In this document: piece by piece, positions 3,260 to 10,747 of the stretch
How the letters are laid out: each line of letters opens with the position of its first letter
Position numbering within the stretch: position 1 is the first letter of the stretch
DNA from: Cloacibacillus porcorum
GTDB lineage: Bacteria; Synergistota; Synergistia; Synergistales; Synergistaceae
DNA length: 64,000 bases
Direction: 5' to 3'
NCBI RefSeq assembly: GCF_001701045.1
Contig: NZ_CP016757.1
Location: 2,320,219-2,384,218 of the forward strand
The notes under the pieces: model-generated
Told to the model about the DNA's origin: nothing
The model's input: only the letters and a program-made list of their open reading frames with translations
Databases searched by the model: none
Translations under genes and position numbers: made by a program

Positions 3260-6015
3260 TATGTCGCCCCCTTTACTGCGGCACGCAGCGCGCCTCCGCG
3301 CTGTATGCCGTTTACGATCATGCTTTCAAGATAGTTTCTGTTCTTCTGTAGCATTTGAATGAAACTCTGCGCGTCAATCGCCTGGATGGTGATGTTGTAG
3401 TTGTCACCGCCACCACCTCCGTCGGCGGTACCTAAGTGCGCATTCTTCGGCTGTACGACTTCGCCGCGCTGCAGGATCGCCGGCACTTCGTCAGGGCGCA
3501 GGCCGGCGATGCCGCCACCGTGCATTCGCGGCGCATTCGCGAACACGGACGGATTTACGAGCGTCGGAGTACCACCGGAGCCAACGGTGCCACCGCCGTG
3601 AAACTTCAATCCGAACAAGCCGAAAAGGCCGCCGCCAGAACCGAAAAAGCCATCGCCTTCTCCGCCGCCAAATAGTGTTCGCATAACAAGCGCCTTGGCC
3701 ACAACCGCGCCGATGTCCTGCAGCAAATCCATCATGGCGTCTCCAAGCGATTCGGTTCCGCGGATCGCGCTCTCAAAGGCGTTGCCGATTCCTTCGGGGA
3801 AGGCATAGAGCGAACTTCGCGCGTCATCCCATACAGCGGCAGCCTGCTGCGCTGCAGTTGGGAATTTATTCATTGTGTTTTCGTACGCTTTAAGCGCGTC
3901 GTCGGCCATTTTGGTAACACGGGGCATATCAGCGAATTGTATCTTTAGCTGCTCAATGGCGGCTTTATACTGAGTTCCGCTTATTTTCCCGTTTTCAAAC
4001 TGGCTTTTTAATAAGTCAAGCGACTTTGAAAAGCTGCTGCTTCCCGCGCTCTGAACATCACTGAAAGCCTTCTGCAACTCAGGAGTCCACTGCAAAAAAT
4101 TCTCCATGTGGCCGCCAGCCGCCTTAAATTGCTCTGACAGGTCAGCAAACCGCTCTTTGAGCTTGTTGAGGTAATCCGTATCGCTCATAAGTCCCTGCGA
4201 GTTCTGCCAGTCATAATTATTATATTCTTCCTCACGCAGCCGCTTAGATTGCTCCATATACGACTTCATGCGCTCAATCTGCTGCTTGTTTCTCTCCATC
4301 ACGTTTACGGCCGAGAATGGGTTGCGCCGTTCCGCGTCTTCCGTGATCTGAAGTTGAAGGTCGCGTATTTTCTTCCAATCCTCTGATAGAGGTTTTGATT
4401 TTGCAAGCCATTTGTCGAGAATTGGCAAGAATGATTCTCCGTCGGCGTTAAGGTATTTTATTTGGTCGGAAATACTTTGCACAAGCATTTCTGCCGCCGT
4501 TTTACCCTTCGCGCCCTTTTTATTGTTGCCCCCCGTAAACCCGCTGTCATTGCCGAGTGAACCAGCGAATAGACTTTTCCAATCAGTGTTGCCGGAGAGA
4601 TCGAGCGCAGTTTTTGCAAGCTGATTTTTTGCTCTTACAATAGCTTCTGTTATACTTTTAGGGCGTCCTTTGCCATTTTTATAGTCTTCCATCGCGGCTT
4701 GCTGGTCGGCTTTTTCTTGTGCAGAGAGTGTTTTTTTAGCCGGCGCCGGCTTTTCTATTCCGGCATCGTCTCCCAGTACCGATGATCTTAGCTGCGCAGT
4801 TTGCGCAATAGCCTCCGTAAGCTTGCCAAGCTTTTTTATTACGAAAGTTACGGCATCCACTATTTTTTCACATACCCATTTGACGGACTTCCATGCGGCA
4901 GAAAAAGCCTCAACAATCGCATCCCAGAGGTCTGTGAAAAAACCGCCCATACTGTCCCAGTTTTCGTATATAACGGCGGCTGCTACGCCGCACGCGGCGC
5001 CAATGGCAAGCAAAGGCCAAGTGGCGGCTATTGTCGCAGCAGCCCACGCAGCAAACGCCGGCACGACAAGCCCGGCAACCGCTGCGGCTATCACCACAAG
5101 AGCTTGGCGCACGCTGTCAGGTACAAGCTGTTCAAAGGCTTCGCGCACGCCACTCGTTTTTATTATCTGCGCAAACGCCGTAAGCCACGATGTCACGCTG
5201 AACAGCCGTTCTTTCAAGTCGAAAGCCCGCGTTATTTCCTCTCCCACACCGCGCATGATGCTCGATATCGCATCCTTCATGTTGCTTAACTGCTGCGGTA
5301 TCTCTTTCGCTACAGCATCCATCATGCCGCCGAAACGCTTCTGCATACCGCTAAAAATCCCCTCAAGCGCGGCTTGCGCGGATATAGCGCCCTTCTTTGT
5401 CTTATCCATTACGTCCGCGACGGTGGTCCCCATGCTTTCAGCGAGCATCTTCCACGCCGGCACGCCGGTTTCCGATATCTGGCGCATTTCTTCGGCCGAC
5501 AGCTTGCCCTTCGCAGCTATCTGTCCGAAGGCAAGCGTCAAGCGGTCTACGCCCTCCTGACTCAGCCCAACAGCCATCGCGGCATCGCCGACCGTCTGTA
5601 AAATCGGGATGACAGACCGTGCCTCGAATCCATAGGCCTGCAACCGCTTCGATGCGTCAACAAGTCCTGCAAATTCAAACGGAGTCGTTGCAGCAAAACG
5701 CTCAAGGTCATTCAAATGCGCCTGCGCTTCTTTTGCGCTGCCGGTCAATACGGTCATGCTGCGCTTCACCATCTCAAAATCAGCAGCCATCTTTACCGAG
5801 GCGGCGCCAAGCGTGCCGATGCCCAGCGCCACCCATTTAAGCTTTGATACTAGATTCGACGATAGTTTCATCGCGTCTTTACCCAACGCGACTTCCAGAT
5901 TCTTTTTAATGGATTTAGAAAAAGCCGTGACCCGTGATGTGAGGCTGCCCAACTGGCGGGCAGCCTCCGTCACGTCGGCGGTTACTTTTATCTGCATTTT
6001 ATTCGAGCTTGGCAT
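3259..6015 (-). CDS. Phage tail tape measure protein
   Basis: At 918 residues this is the longest protein in the window. The N-terminal third holds the tape measure core (ERFAATTPFEFAGLVDASKR and GVSQEGVDRL-like helices). A hydrophobic Ala-rich block near residues 305 to 355 is likely membrane-active at injection. Long charged helices follow, and the C-terminus is Gly-rich. It sets tail length and is ejected with DNA. Its ATG lies inside the end of the GT chaperone frame (17 nt overlap), the usual layout because the chaperones wrap this protein before assembly. Length predicts a tail of roughly 130 to 140 nm if the usual 1.5 angstrom per residue holds. Confidence 0.92.
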   Translation of the reverse strand: MPSSNKMQIKVTADVTEAARQLGSLTSRVTAFSKSIKKNLEVALGKDAMKLSSNLVSKLKWVALGIGTLGAASVKMAADFEMVKRSMTVLTGSAKEAQAHLNDLERFAATTPFEFAGLVDASKRLQAYGFEARSVIPILQTVGDAAMAVGLSQEGVDRLTLAFGQIAAKGKLSAEEMRQISETGVPAWKMLAESMGTTVADVMDKTKKGAISAQAALEGIFSGMQKRFGGMMDAVAKEIPQQLSNMKDAISSIMRGVGEEITRAFDLKERLFSVTSWLTAFAQIIKTSGVREAFEQLVPDSVRQALVVIAAAVAGLVVPAFAAWAAATIAATWPLLAIGAACGVAAAVIYENWDSMGGFFTDLWDAIVEAFSAAWKSVKWVCEKIVDAVTFVIKKLGKLTEAIAQTAQLRSSVLGDDAGIEKPAPAKKTLSAQEKADQQAAMEDYKNGKGRPKSITEAIVRAKNQLAKTALDLSGNTDWKSLFAGSLGNDSGFTGGNNKKGAKGKTAAEMLVQSISDQIKYLNADGESFLPILDKWLAKSKPLSEDWKKIRDLQLQITEDAERRNPFSAVNVMERNKQQIERMKSYMEQSKRLREEEYNNYDWQNSQGLMSDTDYLNKLKERFADLSEQFKAAGGHMENFLQWTPELQKAFSDVQSAGSSSFSKSLDLLKSQFENGKISGTQYKAAIEQLKIQFADMPRVTKMADDALKAYENTMNKFPTAAQQAAAVWDDARSSLYAFPEGIGNAFESAIRGTESLGDAMMDLLQDIGAVVAKALVMRTLFGGGEGDGFFGSGGGLFGLFGLKFHGGGTVGSGGTPTLVNPSVFANAPRMHGGGIAGLRPDEVPAILQRGEVVQPKNAHLGTADGGGGGDNYNITIQAIDAQSFIQMLQKNRNYLESMIVNGIQRGGALRAAVKGAT

Positions 6016-6385
6016 GAGTACCGCCCCTTATTTTTTTAAGTTGTTGCTTCTTATATTCTTCCTCATCAACGATGCGAACTCCATTCCAAATACCGCAAAG
6101 CTCGTCAATCGTATGTGACTCACCATCCTGGCAGATTGCGGCATAGGCCGAAGTTATGGCCGCCTCACGCCGCTGTAAATATGTACCGTAGTTATATGCG
6201 ATCACCTTATCTATGATCTGACCGCGCGTGATGTGCCATAAATCCTCATGGCTTAGGGCAAGAGGCCCTAGAGCCATGAGATACAGCGACCTCCTGTCCT
6301 CTAACAGGAGGTCGCCGTAACGTTTTTTTCTTTTTCCGCGCCTTCCTCTTCTGTTTCGCTTGCGGGAAAGATCGAGACCATGCAA
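5999..6385 (-). CDS. Tail assembly chaperone T-frame, expressed by -1 frameshift
   Basis: This frame overlaps the end of the tail chaperone gene and runs to just inside the tape measure gene. The only ATG, at 6385, sits in the middle of the upstream gene without a ribosome binding site. From the slippery heptamer at 6322-6328 onward the frame continues as RYGDLLLEDRRSLYLM for 107 residues. It is best read as the T part of a G-T fusion of about 224 residues made by -1 frameshifting, as in lambda and many other tailed phages. The T part recruits the tail tube protein and the G part coats the tape measure. Efficiency is unknown. Confidence 0.75.
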   Translation of the reverse strand: MHGLDLSRKRNRRGRRGKRKKRYGDLLLEDRRSLYLMALGPLALSHEDLWHITRGQIIDKVIAYNYGTYLQRREAAITSAYAAICQDGESHTIDELCGIWNGVRIVDEEEYKKQQLKKIRGGTHAKLE

Positions 6386-6672
6386 TTAGATATCTCTTCA
6401 ATCGCAATTTTGATCACGTTCATGTATTCGCTGCCGGACTGCTCTAGGATGTCTCCTGCCTCTTCCAGCGTGATATTACGGCGGCGGCTCTTCAGTCCGG
6501 CCCAAAAAAGAGCGCGGGTAAAACGGAAACTTGAAAGCCGCTTTTCCGGTTCTTTAGATAGCGAATCCATAATTTCCGGAATGCTTTCTTTCATCTGGTC
6601 TTCAAGCGCGCAAAGCGCGTTCTGCCCGTATTCAATGAAATACTTCCGGCTGTTGATTTCTATTTCGCGCAT
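6301..6672 (-). CDS. Tail assembly chaperone (gpG-like)
   Basis: A 123-residue helical protein between the tail tube and tape measure genes, the conserved slot of the gpG tail assembly chaperone. It has no transmembrane segment. The sequence turns highly charged near the end (ETEEEGAEKEKN), where the mRNA reads GAA AAA AAC. The last six codons after the slippery site are used only when no frameshift occurs. It is translated in excess over the longer fusion in characterised phages; that ratio is family knowledge, not visible here. Confidence 0.8.
   Translation of the reverse strand: MREIEINSRKYFIEYGQNALCALEDQMKESIPEIMDSLSKEPEKRLSSFRFTRALFWAGLKSRRRNITLEEAGDILEQSGSEYMNVIKIAIEEISNCMVSIFPASETEEEGAEKEKNVTATSC
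6322..6328 (-). promoter_or_regulatory. Programmed -1 frameshift site A AAA AAC in tail chaperone gene
   Basis: The minus strand reads A AAA AAC with the codon boundaries of the upstream frame, matching the X XXY YYZ rule. Slipping back one base moves ribosomes from the G frame, which stops seven codons later, into the T frame. Both frames and stops are consistent. Confidence 0.8.
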
Positions 6673-7892: not shown

Positions 7893-8210
7893 TTAAGCCT
7901 CCTGAACACAGTCGAGTTCTACCAGCGCAGCCCGATAATCAGGGCGCACCGCCTTTACGATGAGCGATTTGCCGCGCCATGTTATTACGTCGCCTTTTTG
8001 CGGTTCTGTTCCCGGCATCCGCATTATCACAAGGTGCGTTCTAACTTCGACGTCGCGGCCACCAAGAAGCCCGTCTTTTGATTTTTTGGCGGCGACGGAA
8101 GCCCACCCGGAAAATATTATGGATTCGGATGTTATGCTTCCGCCTATGCCGTCATCTTCAAAAACTGCTCGCGAAATTGTTATACGCTCTCTCAGTTCCC
8201 CGGGATTCAT
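7893..8210 (-). CDS. Phage head closure / head-tail adaptor protein
   Basis: A 105-residue protein of the SPP1 gp16 / HK97 head-tail joining type. It opens with MNPGELRERITI, the usual beginning of this family, followed by GWASVAAK and a C-terminal LIVKAVRPDYR beta segment. It closes the connector after DNA packaging and gives the tail a docking surface. It overlaps the upstream connector gene by 4 nt. Confidence 0.82.
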   Translation of the reverse strand: MNPGELRERITISRAVFEDDGIGGSITSESIIFSGWASVAAKKSKDGLLGGRDVEVRTHLVIMRMPGTEPQKGDVITWRGKSLIVKAVRPDYRAALVELDCVQEA

Positions 8211-8539
8211 ACGTAATCACCACACGTCTCGATATGCGTTATGATCGCCTCAACGGTGAAACTGATTTTGTTAAGGGTCTTATTGCCGACAGTCTCAACG
8301 GCGCGATTTTCGTACCAATGGGCAACAAGCAATTTCACGGCGTGCTTATAGAGTTCATCACTGGCGATATCTTCATACGTCGGTTCTCCGCTCTCGTCTT
8401 TCGTGACATGCCGGGTCTTAGATATCTTGCCGCCAATAAACGACTGCGCCGCTGTCATCTGAGCAGTCAAAAGAGCATCCTCCGCGTCACTGTCAACGCG
8501 GAGGAACGTCTTTATCTCTGCCAGCGTAAGCGCCGGCAT
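8207..8539 (-). CDS. Head-tail connector protein, gp6-like
   Basis: A 110-residue helical protein matching the HK97 gp6 / phage_connect family: TLAEIKTFLRVDSDAEDALL at the N-terminus is nearly a consensus for it, followed by helices and ALVAHWYENR-like KLLVAHWYENR. It forms a ring under the portal. Its ATG shares a base with the stop of the capsid Ig-like extension (8539), so its translation may be tied to the frameshifted capsid product. Confidence 0.85.
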   Translation of the reverse strand: MPALTLAEIKTFLRVDSDAEDALLTAQMTAAQSFIGGKISKTRHVTKDESGEPTYEDIASDELYKHAVKLLVAHWYENRAVETVGNKTLNKISFTVEAIITHIETCGDYV

Positions 8540-8808
8540 TAGTCGCTTACCGTCACCTTTACAGTCGCATTAAGCCCGTCGCCCGTTTCAACCGTAAAGG
8601 TCTTTTCGCCATTGGTCAGCGTCGCAAGATAATCGCCGGTTATCGTCAGCTCGCCACCCGATATGGTGTAATTACTGGAATTTACCGCCGTTCCCCCAAT
8701 TTTAAGCGCGGTCACGGCAGATGACGCGCTTACCGTCAGCACCACGTCAGCGGGGGAAGCCTTGCTGAACGTGGCCGCCTCTGGGCTGACGGTTAGGAGG
8801 ATTTTTTT
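8539..8808 (-). CDS. Ig-like (CBM_X2-type) domain added to capsid by -1 frameshift
   Basis: From the slippery site the -1 frame reads KKILLTVSPEAATF and runs about 87 residues to 8539. The pattern of SPEAATF, then DVVLTVSASS, then NYTISGGELTIT and a final TVKVTVSD strand is that of the X2/Ig-like domain found on secreted enzymes and on phage particles. There is no ATG, GTG or TTG with a ribosome binding site near its beginning; the frame is open back to 9093 only as a shadow of the capsid gene. A capsid-Ig fusion of about 506 residues is therefore the likely product. Such surface domains are thought to bind host or mucosal glycans (established for other phages; inferred here). Confidence 0.72.
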   Translation of the reverse strand, partial: KKILLTVSPEAATFSKASPADVVLTVSASSAVTALKIGGTAVNSSNYTISGGELTITGDYLATLTNGEKTFTVETGDGLNATVKVTVSD

Positions 8809-10058
8809 AGGTATGCGAACGCCTTTGTAGTGCGTACCTTGCCGTCCAGGATGGCATAACCCATGTAAGTAGTCGTACGCTTTGTCATGTGGCTGTCCTG
8901 CATCAAGCTGATATCTTCCTGTACATTCATAAGATAGCCCTGACCGACGTTGCCCAACAGCATCGCATCTGCCGGTATGGCATCTTCTTCGTAGACCACA
9001 TGACCAAAGAGACGCCCGACACCGCCAGAGATGACATCTGCGATAAAATACGGGCGACCGGCGGTATCCTTGATATTTGCGAGGACATTCCAAATAAAAT
9101 CATTCTTCGCGTAGATTACCGCTCCGGCGGAGTACCCGCTTCTGATTTTTGACATCAGGGATGTCATTTTCGCATAAGTTACCTCGTCAGTAGAGGGAGT
9201 CCATGTAAGCACCTGCGGCGTGTTCGTCTCTGCGTTGAGCGCCGTAACAATGCCCTGCGGCTGGCTCTTCCAACTATCACTAGCACCCGCGACGCCTTTG
9301 CCCTCAACAACAGCTGCGGCCAGGGCGTTTGCCATTTTCTCAGCCACTAGATTCGCAACATAGGCCAGGAAGGAATCGATGCTCATCTTCTGCAGCTTCC
9401 ATGATATATTCAGCGCCTTTGCAAGCTCGTACCCATCCAGATCAAGCGCTTCTATCGTGAAAGTACCCTCAACGACCTCGGTATCTTCGTCGTAAAACTC
9501 CGCGTTGTCCCCGCTTACTGCCTCAAAGGGATAGCTGAGCTTGCCTTTTACAAAGGTCTTGGGAACGGCGTTAAGAATTGGGTGACGTTCGCCCATCTCT
9601 TTCCAAATAGCGTCAACCAGCGTTTTAGGAATAACGACCGTATGAGTTGCCGCCGTCTGTGTCACATTCTCGATTTCGCCAGGAGCTATTCTTTTGTTTA
9701 TTTTGTCGAAGATTTCAGCCTCTTCTTTTGGCAGCATGAAGCCCATAAGGGTATGAGCGAATGCCTTGCGGTATACTTCATCTTCGTTTTGTGGCTTTAG
9801 CATTGACTCCGCCGGCATCAAATTCTGGGGGGTCAACATATTATCGCGCGAAGTTGTTATATCAACGATTTTGCGCTCTTTTAACGCCGCGAGGTTCGCG
9901 AGTTCGCGCTGCTCGGCGTCATATTCCTCATCGAGAGCCTCTATCTCTGCGCGCTTTGCGGCCGCCGCCTCTACATCTCCGGAAGTGACCGCGTCTGTTG
10001 CTGCGCTCATCAGTTCGTTTCGCTTGTTTTTGTATTCTTCTACAGTCATGGATATCAT
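8793..10058 (-). CDS. Major capsid protein, HK97 fold
   Basis: A 421-residue phage capsid precursor. Residues 1 to about 100 form a charged coiled delta domain (VEEYKNKRNELMSA onward) that acts as internal scaffold and is removed by the protease encoded upstream. The rest carries HK97-type capsid signatures such as IPKTLVDAIWKEM and SWKLQKMSIDSFLAYV. The normal stop lies at 8793, two codons past an A AAA AAA heptamer. The ATG overlaps the protease TGA (ATGA). Confidence 0.92.
   Translation of the reverse strand: MISMTVEEYKNKRNELMSAATDAVTSGDVEAAAAKRAEIEALDEEYDAEQRELANLAALKERKIVDITTSRDNMLTPQNLMPAESMLKPQNEDEVYRKAFAHTLMGFMLPKEEAEIFDKINKRIAPGEIENVTQTAATHTVVIPKTLVDAIWKEMGERHPILNAVPKTFVKGKLSYPFEAVSGDNAEFYDEDTEVVEGTFTIEALDLDGYELAKALNISWKLQKMSIDSFLAYVANLVAEKMANALAAAVVEGKGVAGASDSWKSQPQGIVTALNAETNTPQVLTWTPSTDEVTYAKMTSLMSKIRSGYSAGAVIYAKNDFIWNVLANIKDTAGRPYFIADVISGGVGRLFGHVVYEEDAIPADAMLLGNVGQGYLMNVQEDISLMQDSHMTKRTTTYMGYAILDGKVRTTKAFAYLKKSS
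8802..8808 (-). promoter_or_regulatory. Candidate -1 frameshift site A AAA AAA at the end of the capsid gene
   Basis: In the capsid frame the codons are CTA AAA AAA TCC, so the heptamer A AAA AAA fits the X XXY YYZ rule. A one-base slip enters the frame coding an Ig-like domain. Only two sense codons remain in the zero frame after it. A downstream stimulatory structure was not modelled. Confidence 0.7.
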
Positions 10059-10747
10059 CCCTCTTTCTTTAGATTTAGCAGCTTCAAGCGCTCACGTTCA
10101 AGCGCAAGGGCTGCGATTTTTTTTATCGCTTCCGGGGCCGATTTCGGAAGCTCCTTCGCCGCCATCGCCGCGGGCTCGGCTATTGCCTCGGCGATTTCCA
10201 CGCGGAAATAGCGCGCAGCCTCTTCCGCGGTAAACCACGTTTCTTTGTACATGAGGTCTTTGACCGTCTCGATACTTACGCCGGAAGCCAACGCGCCCTC
10301 ATATACGCTCAACATGCACTCTTCGGCTTTTTCCAGTATTTCCGCGCACTGTTTCATCTCATTTGCGTTGCCGCTGGCGCTCATCGTGGTTCTGTGTATC
10401 ATCAAAAACGTATTGCGCGGCATAATTACACGGTCGCAGCAGAGCGCGATCGCGGAGGCGGACGACGCGGCGAGCCCGTCGATATAACAGGTCTTCTTCC
10501 CGCTGTGTCCCCGAAGCATGTTCACAATAGCCATTGCCGCAACTACGCTGCCGCCGCCGGAATTGATGTGTAGGTTCAAATTCTTGTCAGAGACGCCGGC
10601 AAGAAAATTACGTATCTTTTCCGGGTACTGATCGGCGGCATCCCACGCGCCCCACCACGAGGAGACGATTTCGCCATAAAAATAAAGCGCAGCCTCGCCG
10701 TTTGCGAGATTGCGCACTTGGAGCAGTTTGTTTAGGTTGTCCTTCAT
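10055..10747 (-). CDS. ClpP-like prohead maturation protease
   Basis: A 230-residue serine protease of the ClpP/crotonase fold, encoded between portal and capsid. The nucleophile Ser lies in GLAASSASAI near residue 97, the His in MIHRTTMSA near residue 122, and an oxyanion-type HINSGGGSV loop near residue 65. These are the expected ClpP landmarks. It should cleave the capsid delta domain and itself during head maturation. The C-terminal 50 residues are Ala/Glu/Lys-rich and probably removed. Confidence 0.9.
   Translation of the reverse strand: MKDNLNKLLQVRNLANGEAALYFYGEIVSSWWGAWDAADQYPEKIRNFLAGVSDKNLNLHINSGGGSVVAAMAIVNMLRGHSGKKTCYIDGLAASSASAIALCCDRVIMPRNTFLMIHRTTMSASGNANEMKQCAEILEKAEECMLSVYEGALASGVSIETVKDLMYKETWFTAEEAARYFRVEIAEAIAEPAAMAAKELPKSAPEAIKKIAALALERERLKLLNLKKEG

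Follow-up and report, generated by a model that had tools for sequence, protein, structure and literature searches.

Why should the major capsid gene of a prophage end just behind a run of seven A residues (A7), with another reading frame open past its stop codon? The question arises in 64,000 nucleotides (nt) of Cloacibacillus porcorum DNA (NCBI RefSeq assembly GCF_001701045.1, contig NZ_CP016757.1, positions 2,320,219 to 2,384,218), the whole of which we call the window, and whose minus strand carries the head and tail block of a tailed phage within a prophage. We propose that minority −1 ribosomal frameshifting at an A_AAA_AAA heptamer, stimulated by a downstream stem, adds an X2-type immunoglobulin (Ig)-like domain to the capsid protein, and we put the probability of this reading, which is drawn from sequence analysis, at roughly 0.92.

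Slip Site and −1 Extension of the Capsid Gene

The capsid gene (8793–10058, minus strand, as are all window features below) codes for a zero-frame product of 421 amino acids that matches the Pfam family Phage_capsid (PF05065, 1.7e-33) and the PHROGs family phrog_10, major head protein (1.7e-56). Its fold model has a mean predicted local distance difference test score (pLDDT) of 75.2, with RcGTA (6tb9, 8e-16) and HK97 (1ohg, 2.8e-13) as top Foldseek matches, and by family and predicted fold it is an HK97-fold major capsid protein. The 3′ end of the gene reads TAC CTA AAA AAA TCC TCC TAA, which places the slippery heptamer A_AAA_AAA at 8802–8808 in the zero frame, two codons ahead of the TAA stop codon (8793–8795), just as an earlier note on this DNA had read it. 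This heptamer conforms to the X_XXY_YYZ pattern of programmed −1 sites, and a structured RNA element follows after a spacer of 8 nt.

Behind the heptamer, the −1 frame stays open for 87 residues (8539–8802; ILLTVS...TVSD, followed by TAA at 8539–8541). The shifted product would comprise 419 + 87 = 506 residues and 54.8 kDa, compared to 46.3 kDa for the unshifted one; the 506 and 421 residues given in the earlier note are thus confirmed, as is its estimate of the open frame. The second capsid band of about 55 kDa that it had predicted agrees with the mass computed for the uncleaved protein, but would lie nearer 41 kDa if an N-terminal part is removed. In Lactobacillus phage A2, gp5, the equivalent capsid protein, is annotated as a mature peptide from codon 124, and like cleavage here, at an assumed site, would give bands of about 32 and 41 kDa. 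Peptides predicted from the −1 frame of the extension include ILLTVSPEAATFSK and IGGTAVNSSNYTISGGELTITGDYLATLTNGEK; ILLTVSPEAATFSK and ASPADVVLTVSASSAVTALK would serve as markers of the X2-extended capsid form.

The extension ends, as the earlier note had also seen, on the base where the next gene begins, its TAA stop and the next gene's ATG (8539–8537) having a single base in common in a TAATG overlap. The same junction reads TAATG in locus L002, TGATG in L006 and TAAGCCATG in L005. The overlapping forms suggest that translation of the next gene may be coupled to that of the extension, an arrangement from which L005, with TAAGCCATG, differs.

An X2 Ig-Like Domain in the −1 Frame

The window extension matches the Pfam family CBM_X2 (PF03442) over model positions 1–83 of 83 with an E-value of 5.6e-13 and 49.2 bits (cut-off 28.9), and no other part of the host genome matches CBM_X2 at 0.001. 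A second Pfam family, Shr-like_HID, also lies above its cut-off over the same residues (26.4 vs 22.3 bits). Among six extensions of relatives scanned in the same way, five pass the CBM_X2 cut-off, with the L046 type falling just short at 26.6 bits.

The AlphaFold2 (AF2) model of the 87 residues has a pLDDT of 93.6. In the VIA structure comparison, it matches the Ig-like module of the GH5_4 endoglucanase 5xrc with a Z-score of 12.8, and 1ehx, the X2 module of the scaffoldin CipC, with a Z-score of 9.1 (83 residues, root-mean-square deviation 2.5, 30% identity). A sequence search of the PDB gave two matches, of which the IgA protease domain 9qa6 was the better (6.6e-12) and 1ehx the other (1.1e-6). 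Taken together, the extension is confidently modeled as an Ig-like β-sandwich as in 1ehx, and the X2-type Ig-like reading of the earlier note is borne out by family, model and structural match alike. CipC X2 and the Ig-like modules of GH5_4 endoglucanases (5xrc, 5e09) are of the same domain family or fold, but these modules sit in secreted bacterial proteins, whereas the window X2 lies on a capsid frame; the window domain also lacks the NGNT motif that PMC9022034 names in its abstract. A tblastn search of cultured phage records with the extension gave no match at 0.01, and the corresponding PHROGs search no family at 0.01.

Co-occurrence of the Slip Site and X2 across Capsid Ends

Capsid relatives were gathered from viral contigs (in one search, the best 80 of 200), phage records (10 of 17), related genomes (4 of 100 and 6 of 185) and genome contigs, a single scan of which contributed one locus, L018, and additional loci were recruited by a codon-degenerate DNA pattern and by X2 alignment. 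Profiles were built from the X2 and capsid alignments, and 169 strands contained a capsid match. A capsid end was counted if the match reached profile position 380 and the stop codon lay inside the locus; after exact duplicates were collapsed, this gave 94 distinct ends.

Of these, 27 bear X2, in every case in the −1 frame behind an A7 that starts 10–16 nt ahead of the end of the stop codon (in L068, an A8 stands in place of the A7), and the 67 ends without X2 include none with an A7 within 19 nt. No capsid in the 94 ends carries an in-frame X2 fusion. Since recruitment by DNA pattern or X2 alignment favors the trait, the count was redone on capsid-recruited loci only, where A7 is found in 21/21 ends with X2 and 0/66 without it (Fisher 1.3e-20, a value that overstates independence because the rows are related). 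Heptamer and open X2 frame thus come and go together, the opposite of what the earlier note had named as counting against its proposal of −1 frameshifting, which survives these computational tests.

The loci L064 and L077 are instructive in this respect, as they retain the residues TTKAFAYLKK but spell this end CTGAAGAAA; their −1 frame closes after 7 codons, and there is no extension. Outside this site, 12 of these capsids use both lysine codons, with 183 AAA and 171 AAG. Most extensions hold one X2 copy, while those of L021, L022 and L152 hold two and those of L028, L030 and L034 three, and on a quick tree of 78 capsids the distribution of X2 requires at least five changes, three of them forced by well-supported branches. 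That slip site and X2 are gained and lost together, never in frame on the capsid, and in one to three copies argues for selection on minority display.

Several other capsid ends were considered and set aside. In six X2-less loci (L127, L137, L179, L169, L177 and L060), the −1 frame is open for more than 150 nt, but none has an X2 match, and by eye their translations read as the downstream gene or an unrelated open reading frame (ORF). In L010 and L013, an A7 starts 28 nt ahead of the stop codon's end, and the −1 frame closes 65 nt past the stop. We observed, separately, that in the Lactobacillus capsid relatives L014 and L015 a CCCAAAA heptamer lies 13 nt ahead of the end of the stop and the −1 frame closes 59 nt past it, and that L047 has a second X2 domain elsewhere in the locus, besides that at its capsid junction.

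A Covarying Stem within the X2 Coding Sequence

At programmed −1 frameshift sites, RNA structure usually begins about 5–9 nt downstream of the heptamer. In the window, the 5′ arm of an outer helix (ACCGUCAGC, 8785–8793) starts 8 nt after the heptamer, its first base being the last base of the capsid stop codon, and pairs with a 3′ arm at 8732–8740 (GCUGACGGU). A 9-nt 5′ bulge (8776–8784), present both in the fold of the window segment and in the alignment consensus, separates it from the inner helix (5′ arm 8764–8775, 3′ arm 8741–8751, both supported by the alignment of 12 junctions). This alignment comprises those 12 of the 27 junctions in which the 74 nt past the heptamer align gap-free; the 15 outside it are L095, which is identical to L018 here, and the groups of L026 (three), L028 (three) and L032 (five) with L152, L158 and L159, which were left out because they differ in length or register. 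The common structure of the 12 has an 8-nt spacer, a 9-bp outer helix, the 9-nt 5′ bulge and an inner helix of 7 + 4 bp.

Pairing is found in 230/240 cells of this alignment (95.8%), comprising 108/108 outer and 122/132 inner cells, and 8 of the 20 pairs show two-sided, compensatory changes. None of 500 shuffles reached the observed value on four measures, and five did so on a fifth, while sliding the partner by one to three columns lowers pairing to 24–48%. As the stem region codes for protein, we also generated 5000 synonymous-codon versions of the −1 frame that preserve the −1 protein: outer pairs then averaged 72.3 (maximum 88) against 108 observed, and inner pairs 94.6 (maximum 107) against 122. 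The minimum free energy (MFE) of the window segment is −33.5, with a z-score of −3.49 relative to dinucleotide shuffles.

A natural control is provided by 27 X2 copies that stand out of register with a junction (later members of tandems, those of tail tubes and others, and six first copies whose register differs), which form on average 3.9 of the 9 outer pairs and at most 6. The covariance model R1, which was run on 32 sources, recovered L158, L152 and L159 at 57–60 bits, none of which had been used in building it. The earlier note had called for a search for a stimulatory pseudoknot in this region: a long, bulged stem-loop is present, but the idea that its 9-nt bulge pairs with the 20 nt past the stem finds no support, with a mean best complementarity of 10.75 vs 10.06 in codon-resampled sequence.

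Weighing Ribosomal Frameshifting against Its Alternatives

The same fusion protein would result if polymerase rather than ribosome slipped on the A7, giving a mixed pool of messenger RNA (mRNA) with the X2 fusion translated from slipped transcripts, and A7 (or the A8 of L068) is indeed a run on which polymerases can slip. However, A7 is short for efficient transcriptional slippage, and a covarying stem 8 nt downstream would have no evident part in such an event at an upstream site, so that we consider this explanation quite unlikely. It is less probable still that X2 is translated on its own from an internal start, as a small protein not fused to the capsid. Some relatives do have a GTG 6–12 nt, or an ATG 21 nt, into the extension, yet these downstream starts are not conserved: in the window, L004 and L005 the sole candidate is a GTG 57 nt in, inside the domain, and in L018 and L032 the first 60 nt are free of starts. 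In the 90 nt upstream, the −1 frame has no start codon in any of 12 junctions checked, the window among them (no ATG, GTG or TTG, the nearest being a TTG 291 nt back), in keeping with the earlier note's remark that the extension has no start site of its own. An internal start would also leave the A7 in 27/27 ends and the stem unexplained.

We give the least credence to the open −1 frame being unexpressed, whether as chance, as the decaying leftover of an in-frame fusion, or as a sequencing error. A leftover fusion might be entertained since X2 does occur in frame on tail-tube-like proteins of other phages, but the same frame and heptamer recur in 27 distinct ends with no in-frame capsid fusion among the 94, and the −1 frames of X2-bearing loci stay open for 251 to 776 nt past the capsid stop. 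They are, moreover, under purifying selection, as the ratio of nonsynonymous to synonymous substitution rates (dN/dS) in the −1 frame is 0.09–0.29 in five of six equal-length extension pairs (0.29 for the window vs L002), compared to at least 1.35, with stops, in the other two frames of those five pairs.

Several observations nevertheless weigh against −1 frameshifting stimulated by this stem. The sixth of the pairs above, the near-identical L018 and L095, gives a dN/dS of 0.80, its members being so similar that selection cannot show. Judged by folding energy alone, the signal is weak in L005 and L021 (z-score −0.80 each, by codon resampling), at one end of a range that reaches −5.24 (L026) in 12 sequences, including four types outside the alignment, and it is for this reason that covariation was used as the test. 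Covariation, in turn, covers 12/27 junctions, and R1 misses L026, L032 and L034, which carry other stems, that of L032 starting about 25 nt downstream. Conversely, R1 still scores the in-frame tail-tube locus L083 at 29.6 bits and L104 at 31.6 bits, the highest value for X2 on other genes. A conserved Shine-Dalgarno-like upstream stimulator was rejected as a general feature, as the candidate sequence, compared by eye, reads AAGGCG in the window, L004, L005 and L006 and AAAGCA in the L026 and L046 groups. Finally, in the genome G009, where X2 lies behind a tail-tube-like gene (see below), the slip site would be UUUUACA, which is non-canonical.

With these points taken into account, stem-stimulated −1 frameshifting is still the reading that we favor. 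The analysis establishes the site, its frame, spacing and conservation, the covarying stem, the selection on the −1 frame, and the domain family and predicted fold; slippage and its rate, assembly and surface display we infer, as follows. Most ribosomes would end at the TAA at 8793–8795 and release the 421-residue capsid protein. A smaller share, stalled by the stem-loop 8 nt past the heptamer, would slip back by one base, with both lysine transfer RNAs (tRNAs) re-pairing with AAA, and would continue in the −1 frame to give the 506-residue protein, the last 87 residues of which form the X2 domain. Both forms would then assemble into the HK97-type shell, a fraction of whose subunits would carry a C-terminal X2 domain, presumably on the outside.

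Apparent Movement of the Unit and Copies on Tail-Tube Genes

Comparison of individual loci shows sharp changes in identity at the end of the capsid gene. Between L026 and L029, identity is 68% in the final 0.86 kb of capsid DNA and then rises to 99% across 250 nt of the extension, L046 and L032 are 69% identical in capsid DNA and 98% in the extension, and L158, with X2, differs from its sister L163, without X2, by the whole unit, their capsids being 78% identical and the sequence past them 63–65%. These jumps suggest recombination breakpoints at the 3′ end of the capsid gene.

A search with R1 over 185 genomes of the phylum returned five matches at E ≤ 0.001, four of which are capsid junctions. 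The fifth, in G009, is a stem of 62.6 bits (L204, G009:C54:4500-9500, minus strand, with X2 at G009:C54:6393-6626), where a tail-tube-like gene ends in ...GNGALSFTA* and X2 and the full stem lie behind it in the −1 frame. As a single case with a non-canonical slip site, this putative tail-tube arrangement is a lead. The tail-tube relatives L206–L209 gave, by eye, no X2-like reading in either alternate frame.

The stimulator lies in the opening third of the sequence that codes for X2, and domain and recoding signal can therefore travel together. This raises the possibility, to which we would give nearly even odds, that X2 and its recoding signal form a self-contained mobile cassette, which on landing out of frame behind a virion gene (the capsid, or the tail tube as in G009) would be expressed on a minority of subunits, and that in-frame copies do not keep the stem. 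In the in-frame tail-tube copies L083, L097 and L101, 6, 3 and 5 of the 9 outer pairs, respectively, are present in the copy measured. If true, this proposal would make testable the view, expressed in a section of PMC5009743, that the indifference of such domains to frame is chance, as all 27 capsid copies are out of frame with a slip site.

In-frame X2 domains were also seen at the C termini of proteins in L083, L088–L090, L094 and L096–L104, several of these proteins being major tail proteins to judge by eye, and L097 and L098 have two X2 in tandem. A further X2 match, in L205 (G007:C51), belongs to an ORF of 432 residues that has a signal-like stretch at its N terminus and a GGCNAGFGALAMLFAAPLFYRKKK C terminus, and by eye is not phage-like.

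Relation to Known Systems and Possible Function

Ig-like domains added by frameshifting are, as the earlier note had correctly stated, known from other phages: the consulted parts of PMC5009743 and PMC6316719 describe them as established for T3 and A2, and extended coat or tail proteins for A118, A500, PSA and SPP1. A close parallel is A2, whose major head protein carries an Ig-like extension made by a −1 shift (PMC5009743, in part). Its gp5 gene likewise follows a protease gene, has its heptamer just before the stop codon, and is, on our reading of its DNA, extended by about 87 residues in the −1 frame; as in T3 and A2, an Ig-like domain lies out of frame behind the major capsid gene of the window. 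The two differ in that A2 has the heptamer C CCA AAA and a single domain that by eye is BIG2-like, compared to A_AAA_AAA and X2 in the window, and A2 is not among the 17 phage records matched by the window capsid. A coat protein that exists in part as a minor form with a C terminus added by frameshifting, as proposed here, is also found in T3 and T7 (gene 10A/10B) and in Listeria phages A118 and A500 (−1) and PSA (+1), but while the T3 extension is Ig-like according to PMC5009743, in the portion consulted, that of T7 is not, and the PSA shift is in the other direction. In SPP1, frameshifting adds 87 residues to a virion protein, giving the tail tube proteins gp17.1 and gp17.1* in a 3:1 ratio in tails (PMC6316719, in part); there, a +1 shift at CCCUAA acts on the tail tube, whereas the G009 tail-tube gene would have a −1 arrangement with X2.

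X2 modules aid cell attachment to cellulose in Clostridium cellulolyticum (PMC9022034, in the part consulted), and the Ig-like domains of T4 Hoc bind mucin (PMC9853417, in excerpt), which together make adhesion to glycans or mucus plausible; C. porcorum itself is described as a mucin degrader in a passage of PMC3709534. By analogy, a role of X2 in adhesion to glycans, mucus or cell surfaces may be suggested, if tentatively and at somewhat less than even odds. The main alternative, which shares the frameshift and differs in function only, is that the extension serves capsid stability or assembly rather than an outside ligand. In its favor, direct binding of cellulose or the cell surface by scaffoldin X2 was not observed, according to a section of PMC9022034. 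However, the presence and absence of the domain in close relatives (L158 and L163), its one to three copies, and its occurrence on tail-tube proteins suggest a dispensable display domain, and we regard a structural role as possible but somewhat less likely than not.

Among the papers listed, our literature search found none combining the X2 domain or CBM_X2 with phage and capsid, Fraser 2006 and Garcia 2004 lying outside the survey, and we did not find described in the literature an X2 domain at such a position, singly or in tandem, a covarying stem within the domain, the strict co-occurrence with A7, or the recurrence on a tail tube. The locus extends the cellulosome X2 family to predicted virion proteins, and also contributes a bacterial −1 stimulator, supported by covariation, with a bulge of 9 nt. 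The relatives form a natural series for probing minority display, comprising A7 with X2, AAGAAA without X2, and in-frame X2 without the full stem.

Neighboring Genes

The gene order of the head and tail block is terminase large subunit, portal, ClpP-like prohead protease, major capsid protein, gp6-like connector, head completion protein and further tail genes. The ClpP-like prohead protease (10055–10747; PF00574, 3.4e-22) lies upstream of the capsid gene, and the gene whose ATG overlaps the stop of the extension by one base is the gp6-like head–tail connector (8207–8539; PF05135, 2e-14). Further along, a tail assembly chaperone pair of the gpG/gpGT type occupies 6301–6672 and 5999–6385, with the second frame overlapping in −1 and a zero-frame A_AAA_AAC heptamer at 6322–6328, and is likely a second frameshift of this prophage.
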